From the IMG/VR virus record IMGVR_UViG_3300042922_000886, positions 57,817 to 121,816 of that record: DNA of 64,000 bases; one strand, 5' to 3'. The first letter of the stretch is position 1; each line of letters starts with the position of its first letter. Shown here piece after piece: positions 9,282-32,879 of the stretch. The DNA comes from a virus. The notes under the pieces were generated by a model. It ran no database searches, was not told where the DNA came from, and worked only from the letters and a program-made list of their open reading frames with translations. The translations under genes and the position numbers were made by a program.

Positions 9282-11321
9282 ATGGAATTTAAACAATTCA
9301 AGGATATGCTGCAAGCAAATTTTCAACAAATGTCTAAAGAAGTAACGCACTTATTTGAAGTGAACTTGGATAAGGATGAACTCTGGAACTTATACTTAGA
9401 CAGTTTCCCAGATGGAACTAATTTGATTTTCAGAGAACGTAGAGAATACGACTGCTCTTGCTGTAGACAATTTGTTAAAAATATTGGCAATGCAGTTGTG
9501 ATTAAAAACAATACATTAACTACCATTTGGGATTTTCAAACTAATGACGAGAAATTCCAACCTGTTCTCGATGTGCTATCTTCGTTTGTTAAATCTAAAG
9601 CCGTTTCTGACGTATACATTAGCAAATTTAAGAAGATGGGAACAGATAAGAATTTCGAAGAGGCTAACGGTAGTGCGAAGGAATGGCAGCACCTTTACCT
9701 TGAACTCCCTGATAAATATGTAGATAAGAGTTCTCGCTCTGAAGGTGATATTAAGGGAACTTATCGTGACACCAGAAATGTCTTCAAGAGATCCTTAGAT
9801 GAAATTACTGAAGATAGTCTTCTAACTGTTCTGGAACTCATTTCACAAAACTCGCTCTATAAAGGCGAAGAGTGGAAATCGGCATTGACTGAATTCCATA
9901 AGCACAAGAAAGAATACAACAAGTTACCAACTCAACAAGAAAAATCAAATTATGCTTGGGAACAATCTGTAAAAGTTGGTGGTGCTATCGGTAGAATACG
10001 AAACCATAGCATGGGTACATTGCTGATTAACCTGAGCGAAGGAATGGATCTTGATACAGCCATTAGAAAGTACGAAGTAATTGTTGCTCCGTCTAATTAC
10101 AAAAGGCCGAAAGCAATCTTTACTAAGAAGATGTTAGATGATGCAAAAGAAACGTTGCAGCAACTTGGATATATGGATTCACTAAATCGGCGTTTCGCTA
10201 CATTGGACGATATTACAGTCAATAATATTTTGTTCTCCAATAAAGATTCTGCGAAACGAATTAACGGTTCGGATGTATTCGATGAAATGTTGGGCGAAGT
10301 TGCTATTAATCCAAAGAAATTTTCTAAAGTTGAAGAAATTCCGGTTGAAGCATTTATCAAAGAAGTGCTGCCGACATCTAAGGAAGTCGAAGTGCTCCTT
10401 GAAAACAAACATTCCAACAACATGGTTTCCTTGATTGCTCCAGAAAATAAGGACGCCAAGACTATGTTTAAATGGAGAAACGGATTTAGTTGGGCATACT
10501 CTGGAAACATTACCGACAGTGAAATGAAAGATCGAGTGAAGTCAGCAGGTGGCAATGTAGAAGGGGTATTGCGATTCTCGATTCAATGGAATGACGGCAA
10601 TTTCAACGGTAATGATTTCGACGCTCACTGTATCGAGCCAAATGGCAATCAAATTTATTACGGTAGCAAGAAAAACTGGGCCACTACTGGTGAATTGGAT
10701 GTAGATATCATTCGTCCCGAAAGAAGCAAGCCAGCAGTTGAAAATATTACATGGACAAATAGAGATAAGATGGTAAAAGGAACTTATAAATTCTTTGTTC
10801 ACTGCTACTCTAACAATGGCGGTCGGGATGGATTTAAGGCAGAGATCGAGTTCGGTGGACAAATTTATTCCTTTGAATACAACAAAGAACTTCGTCAAGG
10901 CGAGAAGGTGCATGTTGCAGAAGTTACTTTCGATCAAGATGGATTTACAGTTAATGAAAAACTGCCTTCCAATGTATCCTCTCGCGACATTTGGAATGTA
11001 AAATCGAATCAATTTGTTCCGGTTTCGGTCGTCATGTATTCGCCTAACTATTGGGATGAGCAGCATGGCATTGGACATAAGCATTATTTCTTCATGTTGA
11101 AAGATTGCGTTAATCCTGAAAATCCAAATGGATTTTACAATGAATTCTTGAAGGAGGAGTTAGTTCAACACAAACGAGTATTTGAAGCATTGGGCGGCAA
11201 GATGGCAGTTAAAGATGTAGATGATCAATTGTCGGGTGTTGGATTCTCTTCGACAAAACGAAATGAGCTGTTGGTAAAAGTAAAAGGGCAAACCGAACGA
11301 GTATTGCAAATTAAATTCTAA
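9282..11321 (+). CDS. large conserved phage protein with YfaP/DUF2135-like C-terminal domain, 679 aa
   Basis: The biggest gene in the window. The first 150 residues include a CSCCRQF Cys cluster. The middle is helical. From about residue 385 ([17 protein letters not shown]) the sequence matches a widespread phage protein of unknown function. Within it, [19 protein letters not shown]...PNGNQIYYG...[10 protein letters not shown]...ENITW is a beta-sandwich resembling the YfaP/DUF2135 domain. No enzyme motif, signal or membrane segment. With the next gene it forms a pair separated by 26 bases, and such pairs recur in large phages. ATG preceded by AAGGGAG. Intracellular role unknown. Confidence 0.75.
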
Positions 11322-12059: not shown

Positions 12060-12230
12060 ATGGAACTGAGTGGAAAGTTTGAATTTCTGCGTAATATTGA
12101 TAAATTGATTCAGCGATCAGAGAGATGGATTAAAGACGCTACTGAACGTAAGGACTGGAGTGATGTGGACCATTACAGCGGCCAAAAGAAAGCTTTTGAA
12201 GAAGTCAGGGATATGATTTTCGATCAATAA
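12060..12230 (+). CDS. small helical protein, 56 aa
   Basis: ATG behind TGGAGGG. Charged helical product (NIDKLIQRSERWIKDATERK). An intercistronic element copy precedes it (AATAAAATTCGTATTTTATTGGAGG). No family. Confidence 0.55.
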   Translation: MELSGKFEFLRNIDKLIQRSERWIKDATERKDWSDVDHYSGQKKAFEEVRDMIFDQ

Positions 12231-12373
12231 AATCCGCATTTTATAAAATAAAAATATAGAGTACTCATTTAATTTAATTAAGAATACCTCTTATACATAA
12301 CATATCAGTCACCTTAGAGAATGACAAAAAAATCAAAGAGGTGATTTTTATTGGACGGTATTTATTGGAGAAA

Positions 12374-12520
12374 ATGATTGGCTACGATCCGAACACTAAA
12401 GTTGAAACTTGGCAAAAGGTAATGGAGAGCGATGATTTGGATACTCTAAAAGAATTTCTTGGTAATAATTATCGAATCATTGATCGTGCAACTTCGACAA
12501 TTAAAACTTCGAAAGAGTAA
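12374..12520 (+). CDS. small protein, 48 aa, coupled to an 8-codon leader
   Basis: ATG 12374 overlaps the TGA of a tiny upstream frame (TTG 12351, 8 codons, good GAGGTG site), so translation may be coupled. TGGAG lies just before the ATG. The product is polar with no recognised motif. Confidence 0.5.
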   Translation: MIGYDPNTKVETWQKVMESDDLDTLKEFLGNNYRIIDRATSTIKTSKE

Positions 12521-12584
12521 ATGAGAAGAATTGAACGATTTTAGAATTTTACAATAGAAGAATAAATCAGAAGAAATATAAAAA

Positions 12585-12603
12585 ACCTGCCAAATCAGCA
12601 GGT
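12585..12603 (-). terminator. intrinsic terminator for the minus-strand cargo pair
   Basis: ACCTGC / GCAGGT stem with a 7-base loop. Read on the minus strand it is followed by TTTTTAT. It lies about 60 bases after the end of the gene at 12662. Confidence 0.75.
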
Positions 12604-12661
12604 CGATATGGAACTCCTTTTTCTTCTTGTTGTTATTATTTTTTGTGCTATTGATCGAGAA

Positions 12662-13279
12662 CTACTTTGACAATATTTTACTTGCATTCGCAACAATATC
12701 TTTTTTTAGCTTCGCGTAGCCTTCGTTGTGTTTCTCTACTTCAGTTTCTCTTGCGTCCCTGTTGTCAAGATTATATTTTCCGTAGTGTGCACCAGCTACA
12801 TGATATTTTTGCTCTTGTGCATTCCAACTCAAGAGGAACATATACTTAAGGCCGCTTTGGGCTTTTCTATAGTCTTCTAGTGGGGTTTCGATTTTACCCA
12901 GTTTTTCATCTTGTATAAATGCAGTTGTCTCAATAATCGGAATTACTTGATTGGCTTGAACATCTCCTTTGACATTTTTTAAAATTCGTTCTACTCTAAT
13001 GTCAGTTAAAGTTCTATTTACAACTACGTTAGCCGGTCCTTCATACGAGATTTTGTACGGTGCGCTATTCGGCGTTACAGTTGCCTCAACCACTAAATGA
13101 ACATTACTATCGTTTAAAAGTTCTTCTGCACTGCTATAAGGATAAATCCAAGCAGCACTCGATCTCACTATTATTTCGTCATTCTTTTTATTATTTATGA
13201 AAATTAGGTAAACGACAGAAATTAGAATAATTAGAACTATAACAGTTATTAATGTTGCTTTTTTTGTTTGAACAGACAT
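12662..13279 (-). CDS. membrane-anchored extracellular protein, 205 aa
   Basis: N-terminal single membrane segment (about residues 9-28, ITVIVLIILISVVYLIFI) after a short basic start, followed by an extracellular beta-rich domain without Cys. No family that I can name. It is transcribed with the metalloprotease gene upstream (54-base gap) and ends at the terminator 12585-12603. GGGAGTG lies 10 bases before the ATG. It may be a protease partner, substrate or immunity-like protein; inferred from pairing only. Confidence 0.65.
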   Translation of the reverse strand: MSVQTKKATLITVIVLIILISVVYLIFINNKKNDEIIVRSSAAWIYPYSSAEELLNDSNVHLVVEATVTPNSAPYKISYEGPANVVVNRTLTDIRVERILKNVKGDVQANQVIPIIETTAFIQDEKLGKIETPLEDYRKAQSGLKYMFLLSWNAQEQKYHVAGAHYGKYNLDNRDARETEVEKHNEGYAKLKKDIVANASKILSK

Positions 13280-13332
13280 TAGACACGATCACTCCCTTTG
13301 TATGAACTAAAACTAACTGGTCATTTCAAATC

Positions 13333-13965
13333 CTAATAATCATTAAGAAATTTATATTGTGCGTGTTGAATATCAGTTGTTGTAAGTGTATAAGTTGAAG
13401 CACCAGCATTCATTACATTTGATCCCGTATGTGCAGGGGAATTAGTAAGGTGACTCACTCCTAAAGTATGACCGGTTTCATGCGTAACAATTGTATGTCT
13501 AAGTGATGGTCCGAATCCTGACAAGGTTTTAAGATAATCATGATGAATCACAACAATTGCATGTTTGTATCCTATGTCAGTACCTTCAACACTGTTTGAA
13601 ATATCTAGATCTACTGAATTATAAAAGAATACTTGCCCACCTACTAATGGATCAAGTGTACCTATGTAGTATTTAATCTGAGCGTTTGATTCTGAACTGC
13701 TGTTGAAAGATGGTATATAAGCTTGTGGTCCCCACTGAGACACAGCTTCTGTCACAGAGTCACTGTAGCCATATTGTGTTATTGAGAGGTCGCTCCAGTA
13801 ACCTAATGAACTAGGAGCCGATGAGTAACCTTCAAATTTACCTCCATACAAGTGGCACCCATTGCACTGAGTGTAATCTGCTGATGCAGGAACCGATGAA
13901 AAAGATGCAAGCAGTATAATAAACATAATCGTGTAAATCTTATATTTTTTTCTCTTTGGGGACAT
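13333..13965 (-). CDS. secreted matrixin-like zinc metalloprotease
   Basis: Signal peptide: basic KRKKYK, hydrophobic core, cleavage likely after VPASA (about residue 29). Residues 162-172, HETGHTLGVSH, are the metzincin zinc motif HExxHxxGxxH with catalytic Glu163; NVMN about 20 residues later is the Met-turn. A CNGC pair lies just after the signal. Predicted to be exported by the lysogen and to cleave extracellular protein. Very good GGAGGT site. Being opposite in direction to the phage operons, it looks like cargo (lysogenic conversion) expressed independently. No propeptide is obvious. Confidence 0.85.
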   Translation of the reverse strand: MSPKRKKYKIYTIMFIILLASFSSVPASADYTQCNGCHLYGGKFEGYSSAPSSLGYWSDLSITQYGYSDSVTEAVSQWGPQAYIPSFNSSSESNAQIKYYIGTLDPLVGGQVFFYNSVDLDISNSVEGTDIGYKHAIVVIHHDYLKTLSGFGPSLRHTIVTHETGHTLGVSHLTNSPAHTGSNVMNAGASTYTLTTTDIQHAQYKFLNDY

Positions 13966-14431
13966 TACTATACCTCCATATTATAAGTCTTTTTGAATAC
14001 CTTGTGTCTTCATAAAAAATTACCAATTATTAAAGAACAATGTTCAACAAACAAACACTTAACAAGACTGAATCATTTTATTCCCTCCTATACTTTTTAT
14101 TTTTCTAGGAACACCAACGATGATTTGCGTCCTTTCCGTTGAAACCATTCACCACCTTTTGTAATATATGGTACTATCAATTTCCAATATAAGTAAATGG
14201 TCGCCAAATACTATTTTTGACGCAAAAAAACCAATAAATTGTCGAATATGTAATTAAAAGGGCATGGTATTATAATACAGTTTTGTGAAAAGAAATCAAC
14301 GTAAGTGGATGAATTATAATAAATAAATATATATAATAAATTATAATTGTTATACAATGTTATTGTAAATATATGGGGCGATTCGTGGTATAATTAAGGA
14401 ATAAAAGTCTGATTTTAAGGGGAGATTGGTG
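13966..14431. other. intergenic divergence region between cargo pair and early operon
   Basis: No gene supported. It is AT-rich and must hold promoters in both directions. On the minus strand TATAAT (13974-13983 region) is close to the protease ribosome site, and a strong AGGAGGG followed by ATG opens only a 5-codon frame. On the + strand there are several TATAAT-like boxes (about 14268-14274, 14312) and one extended -10. GAACAATGTTC near 14033 is SOS-like but has the wrong 3-base spacing. Confidence 0.5.
14386..14394 (+). promoter_or_regulatory. extended -10 promoter for the 14.4-28 kb operon
   Basis: TGGTATAAT (TGnTATAAT). The -35 is poor (TGTAAA 19 bases upstream), as is usual for extended -10 promoters. 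Gene start 38 bases downstream. Confidence 0.55.
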
Positions 14432-14617
14432 ATGGTTCGTGCTTCTAGAAGTGATAGTTTGTTTTACAGTATTAAAGAACTTCATGGGAAATATATAGTT
14501 GCATTGTATCGGCAAAACGGAGAAGAGATAAGGACATATGACCAACCTTTTAGTACAGAAGTAGATGCGATAAATGCGGCAAGAGTGGCAGTTAAAGTCT
14601 TTGAGGAGTCCAAGTGA
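14432..14617 (+). CDS. hypothetical protein, 61 aa
   Basis: ATG 14432, 7 bases from AGGGGAG; in-frame TTG/GTG codons just before lie inside the site. Small beta-sheet-plus-helix look (KYIVALYRQNGEEIRTY then AINAARVAVKVFEE), like DUF1508-type minimal domains, but the match is weak. First gene of the operon. Confidence 0.6.
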   Translation: MVRASRSDSLFYSIKELHGKYIVALYRQNGEEIRTYDQPFSTEVDAINAARVAVKVFEESK

Positions 14618-14664
14618 GACATACAACGAAACACGGATTTCATGGGAAAGGAAGAGAATACAAA

Positions 14665-14850
14665 ATGAATGGTGCAGAAGTCCAAATCAGAGACAAAACA
14701 TCCAGATTTGATGGGATGGTTGGAAGGATTGTGAAAGTCCAGAAGACACTGCAAGGAAACGATCTTTATATAGTAGCAATGAATCCATTCATCTCTGAGT
14801 CATTCTTTCCTGATGAAGTGTTTGTTTTAGATGATCCAATAAAAAACTGA
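14665..14850 (+). CDS. hypothetical protein, 61 aa
   Basis: The frame is open from a GTG at 14614 overlapping the previous stop, but a copy of the intercistronic element (CGAAACACGGATTTCATGGGAAAGG) lies in between, and AGGAAG 10 bases upstream points to ATG 14665. Product resembles a small SH3-like barrel (VQIRDKTSRFDGMVGRIVKV). Unknown. Confidence 0.6.
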   Translation: MNGAEVQIRDKTSRFDGMVGRIVKVQKTLQGNDLYIVAMNPFISESFFPDEVFVLDDPIKN

Positions 14851-14876
14851 TTTTATAGGGGAGGAAATTATTAAAA

Positions 14877-16384: not shown

Positions 16385-16840
16385 ATGGAATCGTTGAATG
16401 GACTGTTCCTAGAAAAAATGAAAATGTTAGTTCATTGCCATACTGGTCTGCCTCTAATAGAATTTGATAATGACTACTACGAAAAAACCACAATGTTTAT
16501 GGGTTATAACTTTGATGAAAAACTTATAGCATATAATCTACCAATGTACGAACTTAATAAGAGTCAAATTCCTGAATTAGCACATCTTTCATTAGAGAAG
16601 TTTTTTGAAATAGCAGTTTATCACGAAATAGGACACCATCTTGATTACATTGCAAACCCGAATAGGAAGATATACAGAGAAATGCATGTTAACGATGCGA
16701 CCAATGAGTTTATTCTTGAAGGTGAACTCAATGCTTATAAATATGGTAGGGATCTTGTGCCCGACTCCCTAATAAGTTATTACGATATTTTGAACCAATT
16801 CAACATAGAGAAGTACAATGAAATGGCAAATGAAACCTGA
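16385..16840 (+). CDS. HExxH zinc-metallopeptidase-like protein, 151 aa
   Basis: YHEIGHHLD at residues 79-87 is an HExxH zinc motif; GELNAYKYG at residues 113-121 can supply the third ligand (Glu114), the layout of ImmA/IrrE-type intracellular metallopeptidases. No signal peptide and no HTH. ImmA proteases cleave phage or ICE repressors, so a role in induction or anti-defence is possible but unproven. TGGGAGG before the ATG. Confidence 0.65.
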   Translation: MESLNGLFLEKMKMLVHCHTGLPLIEFDNDYYEKTTMFMGYNFDEKLIAYNLPMYELNKSQIPELAHLSLEKFFEIAVYHEIGHHLDYIANPNRKIYREMHVNDATNEFILEGELNAYKYGRDLVPDSLISYYDILNQFNIEKYNEMANET

Positions 16841-31045: not shown

Positions 31046-31117
31046 TATATCAAGAAAACAAACAGTAGATGTTTTAAAGATTTATGTTATAAAACATAAT
31101 GGGGAAGAGTGATATCG

Positions 31118-31759
31118 ATGGATGCAGTTAGATTTTTCATGTTATCTATCTTAGAAGTTTCAACTTTGTTTGTTCTCATGTTCTCGATATTTAGATTCAA
31201 AGTTAGGTTCTATATAAAAGAAATAATTTTTATAAGCGTGTTGATTTCGTTGGCATCTTATTATCTTAGATTTTTTGAGAATCTATATAGTTTAGTTCCG
31301 ATAATACTCCTTGTTCTTATAATAATAAATTTATGGATTGTGTTTAAAATATCACCTTTCTACGCAGCTATTATGGGGATTGCTTCCTACGTCGGTTATA
31401 GTGTTGTACAGGCACTGATACTTTGGATCATGCAAGAGGCCAACTTTGTTACATTCAATCAGATAAAAGAAAACAATCTACAAACTGGTCAGTTACTTCA
31501 GATAATATCGGTTGCCATTACTCTACTGATATCTGTTGTTTTAGTAAGGTTTAGACTATGGTTTACGTTTGTTCCTGTATCAAATTCTGTACTCATAAAG
31601 ATCAACTCGAAGAATCTTATTACACTAATTGCAATTACAATATCTATCATCATAGTAGGATCGATTTTTAATATAAATAATATCGCTCTTATACTCATTG
31701 GATTAGTATTTGTCGCTGGATTTATTTATTACCTTCTATATAAAAGGGAGACAACATGA
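31118..31759 (+). CDS. polytopic membrane protein resembling the sensor part of AgrC, no kinase
   Basis: About 213 residues with six or seven hydrophobic spans (roughly 6-26, 33-52, 57-77, 80-104, 124-146, 167-187, 188-207) and a short basic tail (YKRETT). This is the usual layout of the peptide-sensing membrane domain of AgrC kinases, but the protein ends where the DHp and ATPase domains would begin. Its stop overlaps the start of agrB. It may be the peptide receptor signalling without phosphorylation, an exporter/processing helper or an immunity protein. ATG 31118 is chosen (GGGGAAG upstream); GTG 31109 is also open. Confidence 0.65.
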   Translation: MDAVRFFMLSILEVSTLFVLMFSIFRFKVRFYIKEIIFISVLISLASYYLRFFENLYSLVPIILLVLIIINLWIVFKISPFYAAIMGIASYVGYSVVQALILWIMQEANFVTFNQIKENNLQTGQLLQIISVAITLLISVVLVRFRLWFTFVPVSNSVLIKINSKNLITLIAITISIIIVGSIFNINNIALILIGLVFVAGFIYYLLYKRETT

Positions 31760-32283
31760 TTGATAAATTAACTCATACAATTGGTATGAAAATCAAAAAG
31801 AATTATCCAGAAGCAAACATTGAAATCCTTAAATACTCATTGAACGTAATAATAAACCCACTAGCAACAATTATTCTCTCAATGGTAATATCACACTTTA
31901 CTAATGATACTTATGATGTTGTAATCGCTATGGTTTCGTTCGCTGTACTTAGGGCATTCTCTGGCGGAATACATATTAAATCATCGGAGCTATGCATAAT
32001 TATCTCAACGACATTATTTATTGGAATCTCTTTTTTGCACGATTACCTCGTTGACTATACACTAATACTCACTATCGTATCATCATTATTAACCTTGACT
32101 TTTGCACCATCTAGAATTTATGGTCAAACAAGAATTCCGGAGCAGTTCTATCCGATTCTAAAAGTTGTTTCATTGGGTATTATTTCAATTAATTATATAT
32201 TTAACAGCAGTGTACTTGCTTTAACTTTTTTCATACAAAGTATGCTGCTGATTAACATCGGGAAAGGAGGTGAAAACAAATGA
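31756..32283 (+). CDS. agrB: AgrB-family peptide-processing membrane protease
   Basis: 175 residues with several membrane spans and the AgrB catalytic pair: LRAFSGGIHIKSSELC places His73 and Cys80 seven residues apart, as in AgrB His77/Cys84. It should cleave the C-terminal tail of AgrD and cyclise the peptide at the membrane. ATG overlaps the stop of the membrane-sensor gene; its own stop overlaps agrD. A whole, uninterrupted family member. Confidence 0.9.
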   Translation: MIDKLTHTIGMKIKKNYPEANIEILKYSLNVIINPLATIILSMVISHFTNDTYDVVIAMVSFAVLRAFSGGIHIKSSELCIIISTTLFIGISFLHDYLVDYTLILTIVSSLLTLTFAPSRIYGQTRIPEQFYPILKVVSLGIISINYIFNSSVLALTFFIQSMLLINIGKGGENK

Positions 32284-32405
32284 AAAAAATCATCGCAAAA
32301 TATGCTACCTTGGCTTTGTCTGCAGTTGCTGTTGCTACCGTTAGTGGTACTGCAAGTTTGGTTTTCGTACACAATCCTAAAGTACCTCAAGATCTCTTGA
32401 AGTAA
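32280..32405 (+). CDS. agrD: AgrD-like cyclic (lactone) autoinducer pre-peptide, 41 aa
   Basis: Layout of AgrD: basic amphipathic leader (KKIIAKYATLALSAVAV), core, and recognition tail NPKVPQDLLK with the family Pro-x-x-Pro. There is no Cys; Ser26 four residues before Val30 (SLVFV) would give a five-residue lactone, as in the Ser-type autoinducers of many Bacillales. Superb AAAGGAGGTG site; ATGA overlap with agrB. The mature ring and its length are predictions. Confidence 0.85.
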   Translation: MKKIIAKYATLALSAVAVATVSGTASLVFVHNPKVPQDLLK

Positions 32406-32416
32406 TTTTAGGTTGA

Positions 32417-32464
32417 AATTGTTGGACTCGGAGAGTGATCGCTGTACTTTCCAGTCCAACAATT
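32417..32464 (+). other. 12-bp hairpin between agrD and LytTR gene
   Basis: AATTGTTGGACT / AGTCCAACAATT, perfect, 24-base loop, no T-run behind it. It could stabilise the agrBD message, or be a processing or attenuation site that sets expression of the regulator relative to the peptide. Confidence 0.6.
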
Positions 32465-32495
32465 ATAGTTTCTAGAACTGGAGGATATCTTTGCT

Positions 32496-32879
32496 ATGGA
32501 GTTTTTCGCAAAAAAGAAAGATGGGAAGAATATTTCAGAAAAAGTTGAAAAAATTCATAGCAAGGATATCTGCTATGTAACCACCGAAGGAAGAAAAGCT
32601 CATACAATTGCAAAAATGAAAGATGGCTCTGTATATTATATTTCTATGCCAATATCAGAAATTGTTCAAGGATTGGAGGAATATGAAAATTTCAAAACAA
32701 CGGATCGCAGTGTAACAGTCAATATGGATAACGTTACATATTACGAAACGCTGTACGATAGGTTATTTTTTGAACATAACAATGAAATGAGGGAGTTTAC
32801 GTTTATTACTGTAGCTAGATCATATGCTAAGGAAATCAAAGTCCTAATGAGGGAATTACGTGTAGAATTTAGGGAATAA
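32496..32879 (+). CDS. LytTR-type DNA-binding protein, 127 aa
   Basis: The whole protein is one LytTR domain: KDICYVTTEGRKAHTIAKM, then SEIVQGLEEYENFKTTDRSV, NMDNVTYYETLYDRLFF and FTFITVARSYAKEIKVL match the strands and the conserved V-N-x-D-x-V and R-x-Y-x-K positions. There is no receiver domain, so it cannot be a phosphorylated response regulator. It probably binds the cassette promoter and phage targets, with activity set by the membrane protein or by level. Start ATG after TGGAGG. Confidence 0.8.
   Translation: MEFFAKKKDGKNISEKVEKIHSKDICYVTTEGRKAHTIAKMKDGSVYYISMPISEIVQGLEEYENFKTTDRSVTVNMDNVTYYETLYDRLFFEHNNEMREFTFITVARSYAKEIKVLMRELRVEFRE

Follow-up and report, generated by a model that had tools for sequence, protein, structure and literature searches.

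A pairing of a secreted metalloprotease with a surface partner was described in Listeria by Boichis et al. in 2021, where the secreted metzincin Mtz is followed by the lipoprotein Tim (LMRG_00713-00714) (PMC8235301). In that study, Tim was likened to TIMPs using Phyre2, and Mtz cuts Tim ~50 residues from its N-terminus. Upon co-expression with active Mtz, the Listeria cells became curved, and both they and their neighbours were sensitised to penicillin. The pair also increased the sensitivity to phage lysis and raised virion release ~5-fold. This phenotype required both proteins and an active protease; Tim is cleaved by Mtz and was not shown to inhibit it. Deletion of the pair left biofilm, cell invasion and intracellular growth unaffected. 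Similar pairs were reported in Bacillus, Brevibacillus, Lysinibacillus and Clostridium, with the non-Listeria partners lacking a lipobox, and the prophage mtz-tim genes of Listeria were predicted to be under Agr control (PMC8235301). In the literature that we covered, with subscription journals mostly outside it, Listeria was the one bacterium for which a metzincin was described together with a TIMP-like partner.

We analysed a window of 64,000 nucleotides, which spans positions 57817-121816 of a virus record 121,816 bases long and carries a matrixin gene and the gene of a membrane-anchored partner (Table 1). A DnaB-like helicase in the window showed 54% identity to the helicases of the Spbetavirus phages Goe11, Goe12 and Goe14, and an MrpR-type repressor was recognised by PF22822 (5.2e-22) and PF22823 (1.9e-19). 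In SPbeta, MrpR serves as the master repressor (PMC10516654). An integrase, a tape measure protein and a terminase are encoded elsewhere in the 121.8-kb record, as indicated by PHROG matches. Judged by these genes, the record is a large temperate SPbeta-like phage. The helicase relatives were found at 14 genome loci, 10 of which are titled Paenibacillus, and the six nearest ones (60-74% identity) are all from this genus. A related virus record, G002, is a Paenibacillus chitinolyticus prophage, since its locus of 21,326 bases matches the P. chitinolyticus genome at 100% identity. Because the helicase relatives are mostly from Paenibacillus and G002 is a Paenibacillus prophage, we infer that the host is probably Paenibacillus or a near neighbour.

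Table 1. Features of the matrixin-partner locus and of the agr-like module, in window coordinates
Feature	Position	Strand	Evidence or remarks
Variable slot	12493..14628		Flanks 12226-12492 and 14629-14866 98% identical in G001
Terminator-like hairpin (9 pairs) then T run, 3' of the partner gene	12584..12604	-	No more sites than in shuffles
Membrane-anchored partner, 205 aa	12662..13279	-	ORF, N-terminal TM segment, no cysteine, extracellular domain ~residues 50-205
Secreted matrixin (M10 metzincin), 210 aa	13333..13965	-	ORF, signal peptide, zinc site, Met-turn, family profiles
Promoter-like site TTTACA-18-TATAAT, 5' of the matrixin gene	14340..14369	-	11/12 match; no more sites than in shuffles
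Membrane protein of the agr-like module	within 31109-32879	+	phrog_15604
AgrB	within 31109-32879	+	PF04647, 2.3e-18
AgrD-like ORF, 41 aa	32280-32405	+	By eye, no family match
LytTR regulator	32496-32879	+	PF04397, 8.2e-7

The upstream gene had been predicted to encode a complete signal-peptide matrixin with HETGHTLGVSH and a Met-turn, and both motifs are indeed present in an intact ORF. The signal peptide, read by eye, ends at ASA-D, the zinc site occupies residues 162-172 and fits HExxHxxGxxH, and the Met-turn is SNVMN, with Met185 nearly invariant in the matrixin alignment (A3). Among 39 paired matrixins, 38 kept HExxHxxxxx[HD], 21 had the exact HExxHxxGxxH, and 38 had a methionine ~6-35 residues past HExxH. 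These features, together with the secretion signal, are shared with matrixins of peptidase family M10 (PF00413), whereas the cysteine-switch pro-domain and the hemopexin domain are missing; no long pro-domain was found. The window protein alone scored under the curated Pfam cut-off for matrixins (19 versus 24 bits), so its M10 membership rests at the family level. At that level the assignment is firm by profile comparison: PF00413 matched 21 of the 23 aligned matrixin-family proteins at E<=0.1 (best 2.2e-8), and a profile of the matrixin relatives matched MMP-1 collagenase among solved structures (2.1e-9). A single-sequence structure model was uninformative (pLDDT 35), and the matrixin's hit on a PHROG holin family (E 0.047) was taken as chance.

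The downstream gene, claimed earlier as a membrane-anchored companion of the matrixin, fits that description, since its product has a single N-terminal hydrophobic segment. This segment, a predicted continuous helix of residues 3-33, was the sole confident part of an otherwise poor single-sequence model (mean pLDDT 45.7). The protein has no lipobox, and its anchor is a transmembrane segment. A Pfam scan of 32 partner members gave no convincing family (13 families with one member each, best E 0.0043) and no TIMP match, and the partner profile did not match any solved structure, with a best E of 0.17.

TIMPs, the animal metalloproteinase inhibitors of PF00965, carry an inhibitory domain with an N-terminal cysteine and disulfides, and inhibition works through that cysteine. 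The likeness of the partner to them is one of role by analogy only. When the partner profile was aligned with three TIMP sequences, hhalign returned a probability of 2% over 21 columns, and the score of 18.7 was slightly above the maximum of 16.7 in 100 shuffles. The window partner, unlike a TIMP, is free of cysteine, as are 38 of 39 partners beyond residue 35; cysteine-led inhibition of the TIMP type therefore cannot operate here. A TIMP identity thus found no support in the Pfam scan, the profile search of the PDB, the hhalign comparison or the poor structure model, and by these tests of sequence the partner appears not to be a TIMP, although it may have a distant likeness to the OB-type fold.

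The two genes lie on the minus strand between phage genes on the plus strand, in agreement with the original prediction that the pair opposes the phage genes. They are separated by 53 bp, with a GGGAG ahead of the partner start by eye, and their G+C contents (38% and 35%) are close to that of the window (36%). An own terminator had also been predicted: a hairpin does lie just 3' of the pair, but shuffled sequences yielded as many such sites (1 versus 1.3 expected), and the promoter scan gave 9 sites versus 10.8 expected. Both sites lie in the right orientation on either side of the pair, and it is plausible that they serve it as terminator and promoter. The stretch from the promoter-like site to the matrixin contains a 29-aa ORF with a ribosome-binding-like sequence by eye (14059-14148, minus strand). 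A 151-aa phage protein with HEIGHH is encoded on the plus strand (16385-16840) and is conserved in the related record G001; it matched no Pfam, NCBIfam or PHROG family and is possibly another small zinc peptidase.

G001, a second record (183 kb, from a metagenome), is near-identical to the phage over long stretches, with 99.98% identity across 17 kb. Between the common flanks, the slot holds 2,136 bases in the window; in G001 it is filled by 1,551 bases that are unrelated and contain different ORFs, among them one resembling an XRE-type regulator by eye. A protein search of G001 and G002 found no matrixin relative in either. Because different DNA lies between the shared flanks in so similar a phage, the pair is exchangeable cargo. 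Its earlier description as lysogenic cargo thus holds, given the exchangeable slot and the temperate-phage genes of the record (terminase, tape measure, integrase and MrpR). The original prediction had also named an outcome that would speak against it, namely the same pair at a non-phage site of the host chromosome with the window itself being chromosomal. Similar Paenibacillaceae pairs do occur at chromosomal-looking sites, as judged by eye, the closest being 45% (matrixin) and 36% (partner) identical; the window, however, is not chromosomal but phage. Outside the slot, a 679-aa phage gene (phrog_1735, window 9282-11321) is interrupted in G001 (L015:7286-11052) by a 523-aa transposase-like ORF.

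We searched for the pair in genomes of the family and class, centred on Paenibacillus sp. HGH0039 (G004). The window matrixin matched 8 of 104 genomes in the family and 15 of 398 in the class, the partner matched 19 of 104 in the family, and the partner profile matched 106 of 398 in the class. Scans for close relatives with the window proteins had given no match because the relatives are <=45% identical; the whole-genome protein and profile searches did find them. Five of the eight matrixin loci in the family were paired (L034-L037, L040); the others were one without a partner (L038), one ending at a contig edge (L039) and one whose match is not a matrixin (L041). Among the 17 loci of class Bacilli found by the matrixin alone, 15 had an ORF matching the partner profile directly downstream on the same strand, with gaps of -29 to 48 bp. 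This profile started from the window partner and was extended iteratively with ORFs from those loci, with adjacency unused. The two exceptions were a 66-aa matrixin remnant beside partner fragments, and a downstream lipoprotein of the Tim-like group that scored under the profile threshold.

In the reverse direction, a matrixin was directly upstream of the partner at 29 of 40 examined loci. These comprised 30 from the profile search (21 with a matrixin), several of which are genes already in the class matrixin search, and 10 hand-picked lower-scoring ones (8 with a matrixin); many weaker matches of the partner family lie outside this count. Furthermore, in a Paenibacillaceae bacterium (CAVE-418, G010), the matrixin and the partner domain are fused in a single 372-aa protein (L033:1090-2208). 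The gene-tree distances of matrixin and partner were correlated with r 0.83 over 39 distinct pairs, a value reached in 0 of 2000 permutations; one of the matrixins, L084, is a shortened reading frame of 151 aa. The correlation shows that the genes travel together by their trees, a pattern that shared descent alone could produce. In both trees the nearest relative of the window pair was the Paenibacillaceae locus L034 (matrixin-tree support 0.971). Since relatives of both proteins co-occur in many genomes, the pairing is not chance, and as judged from gene neighbourhoods the matrixin and partner are a conserved two-gene unit in which the partner is not incidental. Eleven of the 40 partner loci had no adjacent matrixin (L087, L092, L094, L097, L104, L107, L108, L109, L112, L121 and L122); because of these, and of the many weaker matches, the partner domain may also function where there is no protease.

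Compared with Mtz-Tim of Listeria, the window pair likewise consists of a secreted metzincin with an anchored partner directly downstream of it on the same strand, with the same order and topology, and is likewise associated with a phage or mobile element. However, the phage here is SPbeta-like, whereas the Listeria prophages are PSA/A118/A500-like, and the window partner has a transmembrane anchor where Tim has a lipobox. The neighbours also differ: in Listeria, the pair lies next to XRE cI/cro-like regulators at the chromosomal locus or a holin-lysin in the prophages, whereas neither an XRE cI/cro pair nor a convincing holin-lysin was found among the window neighbours, of which seven ORFs were searched by Pfam and three by PHROGs. 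Alignment of the partner profile with two lipoproteins located downstream of an enterococcal-type metzincin gave an hhalign probability of 84% (E 7e-6), with a score of 42 where 100 column shuffles reached at most 25. The partner may be homologous to Listeria Tim; the nearest test is this one, in which the compared proteins were enterococcal Tim-like lipoproteins and not Tim itself. We regard Mtz-Tim as the closest described system and the window pair as belonging to the same kind.

Our best explanation, to which we assign a probability of roughly 0.5, is that the locus is a cassette of the Mtz-Tim kind in which the protease clips the partner, the wall is weakened and lysis is eased. The matrixin would be exported, and the partner would stay membrane-bound and expose its domain to the outside. 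At the cell surface, the protease would most likely encounter the partner and cut the linker that joins its membrane segment to its domain. Once free, the domain would weaken wall maintenance, either by itself or together with the protease. Lysogens or their neighbours might then lyse more readily under a phage or another lytic agent. Based on the Listeria work, we infer that cleavage of the partner, its release and a wall effect could also take place in this phage. Because Mtz-Tim is the closest described example, the effect is more likely on the wall of the bacterium itself and on phage lysis than on a eukaryotic host.

Among the alternatives, the one that survives best is that the partner is a membrane-tethered inhibitor, shielding the lysogen from its own protease, which would act on surface proteins of neighbours, receptors of competing phages or environmental protein. 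We consider it possible, if doubtful. The strict pairing, the order of protease then partner, and the anchoring at the surface of the producer would all suit an inhibitor, and a fusion such as that of CAVE-418 would instead bear its inhibitor permanently. The TIMP mode of inhibition via an N-terminal cysteine is ruled out for the cysteine-free window partner. Moreover, the Listeria phenotype needs both proteins and an active protease, and in that study the partner was cleaved and not shown to be inhibitory (PMC8235301).

It is unlikely that the matrixin is instead an exoprotease for nutrition or the host niche, serving in lysogenic conversion, with the partner as a surface anchor, a chaperone or a substrate-capture domain. 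Paenibacillus hosts are protein degraders, the protease is secreted without a long pro-domain, and the fused protein holds protease and domain together, all of which would agree with such a role. Against it stand the partner loci at which no matrixin is adjacent. In addition, for the single pair that has been tested, the effect was on the bacterial wall, and deletion of that pair left biofilm, invasion and growth in cells unchanged (PMC8235301). That the pair is passenger DNA of bacterial-chromosome origin with no present phage function, as the bacterial occurrence of such pairs and the variable slot would allow, is improbable, because neither frame is broken and the residues of the zinc site and Met-turn are preserved, although the nearest relatives found are only 45% (matrixin) and 36-44% (partner) identical, which implies long maintenance under selection in a phage or an unsampled donor.

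An agr-like module lies next to the MrpR repressor, ~17 kb from the pair (31109-32879). Its AgrB has relatives in Brevibacillus and Paenibacillus phages, and phage agr genes are the subject of an earlier report (PMC3901668). Upstream of the matrixin, a search with the Agr-box consensus found no Agr/LytTR-type repeats above chance; the LytTR protein of the phage may bind a different site. A quorum signal of the phage could in principle switch on the protease and partner, soften the surrounding walls at high density and couple virion release to the state of the population; we regard this as very improbable.

Bacterial matrixins had been described earlier as uncommon on phages. Searches of phage collections do not measure how rare the pair is, because they also missed the published prophage pairs of Listeria. 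A tblastn search of 50,697 phage records with the window proteins and pattern scans of viral contigs found no relative of either protein, and both methods missed the Listeria prophage pairs as well. Matrixins of other genomes gave one match in the phage collections, Enterococcus phage Efs 1-1-1 (OR846610), which was rejected as evidence of phage carriage: its neighbours xseA, xseB, ispA, argR and recN read by eye as bacterial chromosome. In this record (L083:3947-5369), a metzincin and a Tim-like protein form a pair ahead of argR and recN by eye.

The locus is of a known kind; what makes it of interest is how widely the pairing occurs, the fused form and its presence in a phage. The cysteines behind TIMP inhibition are absent, which calls for caution in reading such partners as TIMPs. 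The single studied locus of Listeria resembles a conserved protease-partner unit of class Bacilli that includes a natural fusion, and the Mtz-Tim kind of pair appears to extend to large SPbeta-like phages. The pair may help the phage to exit or change the cell wall of its host, and it offers a testable route by which secreted phage cargo would alter the walls of lysogens and their neighbours.
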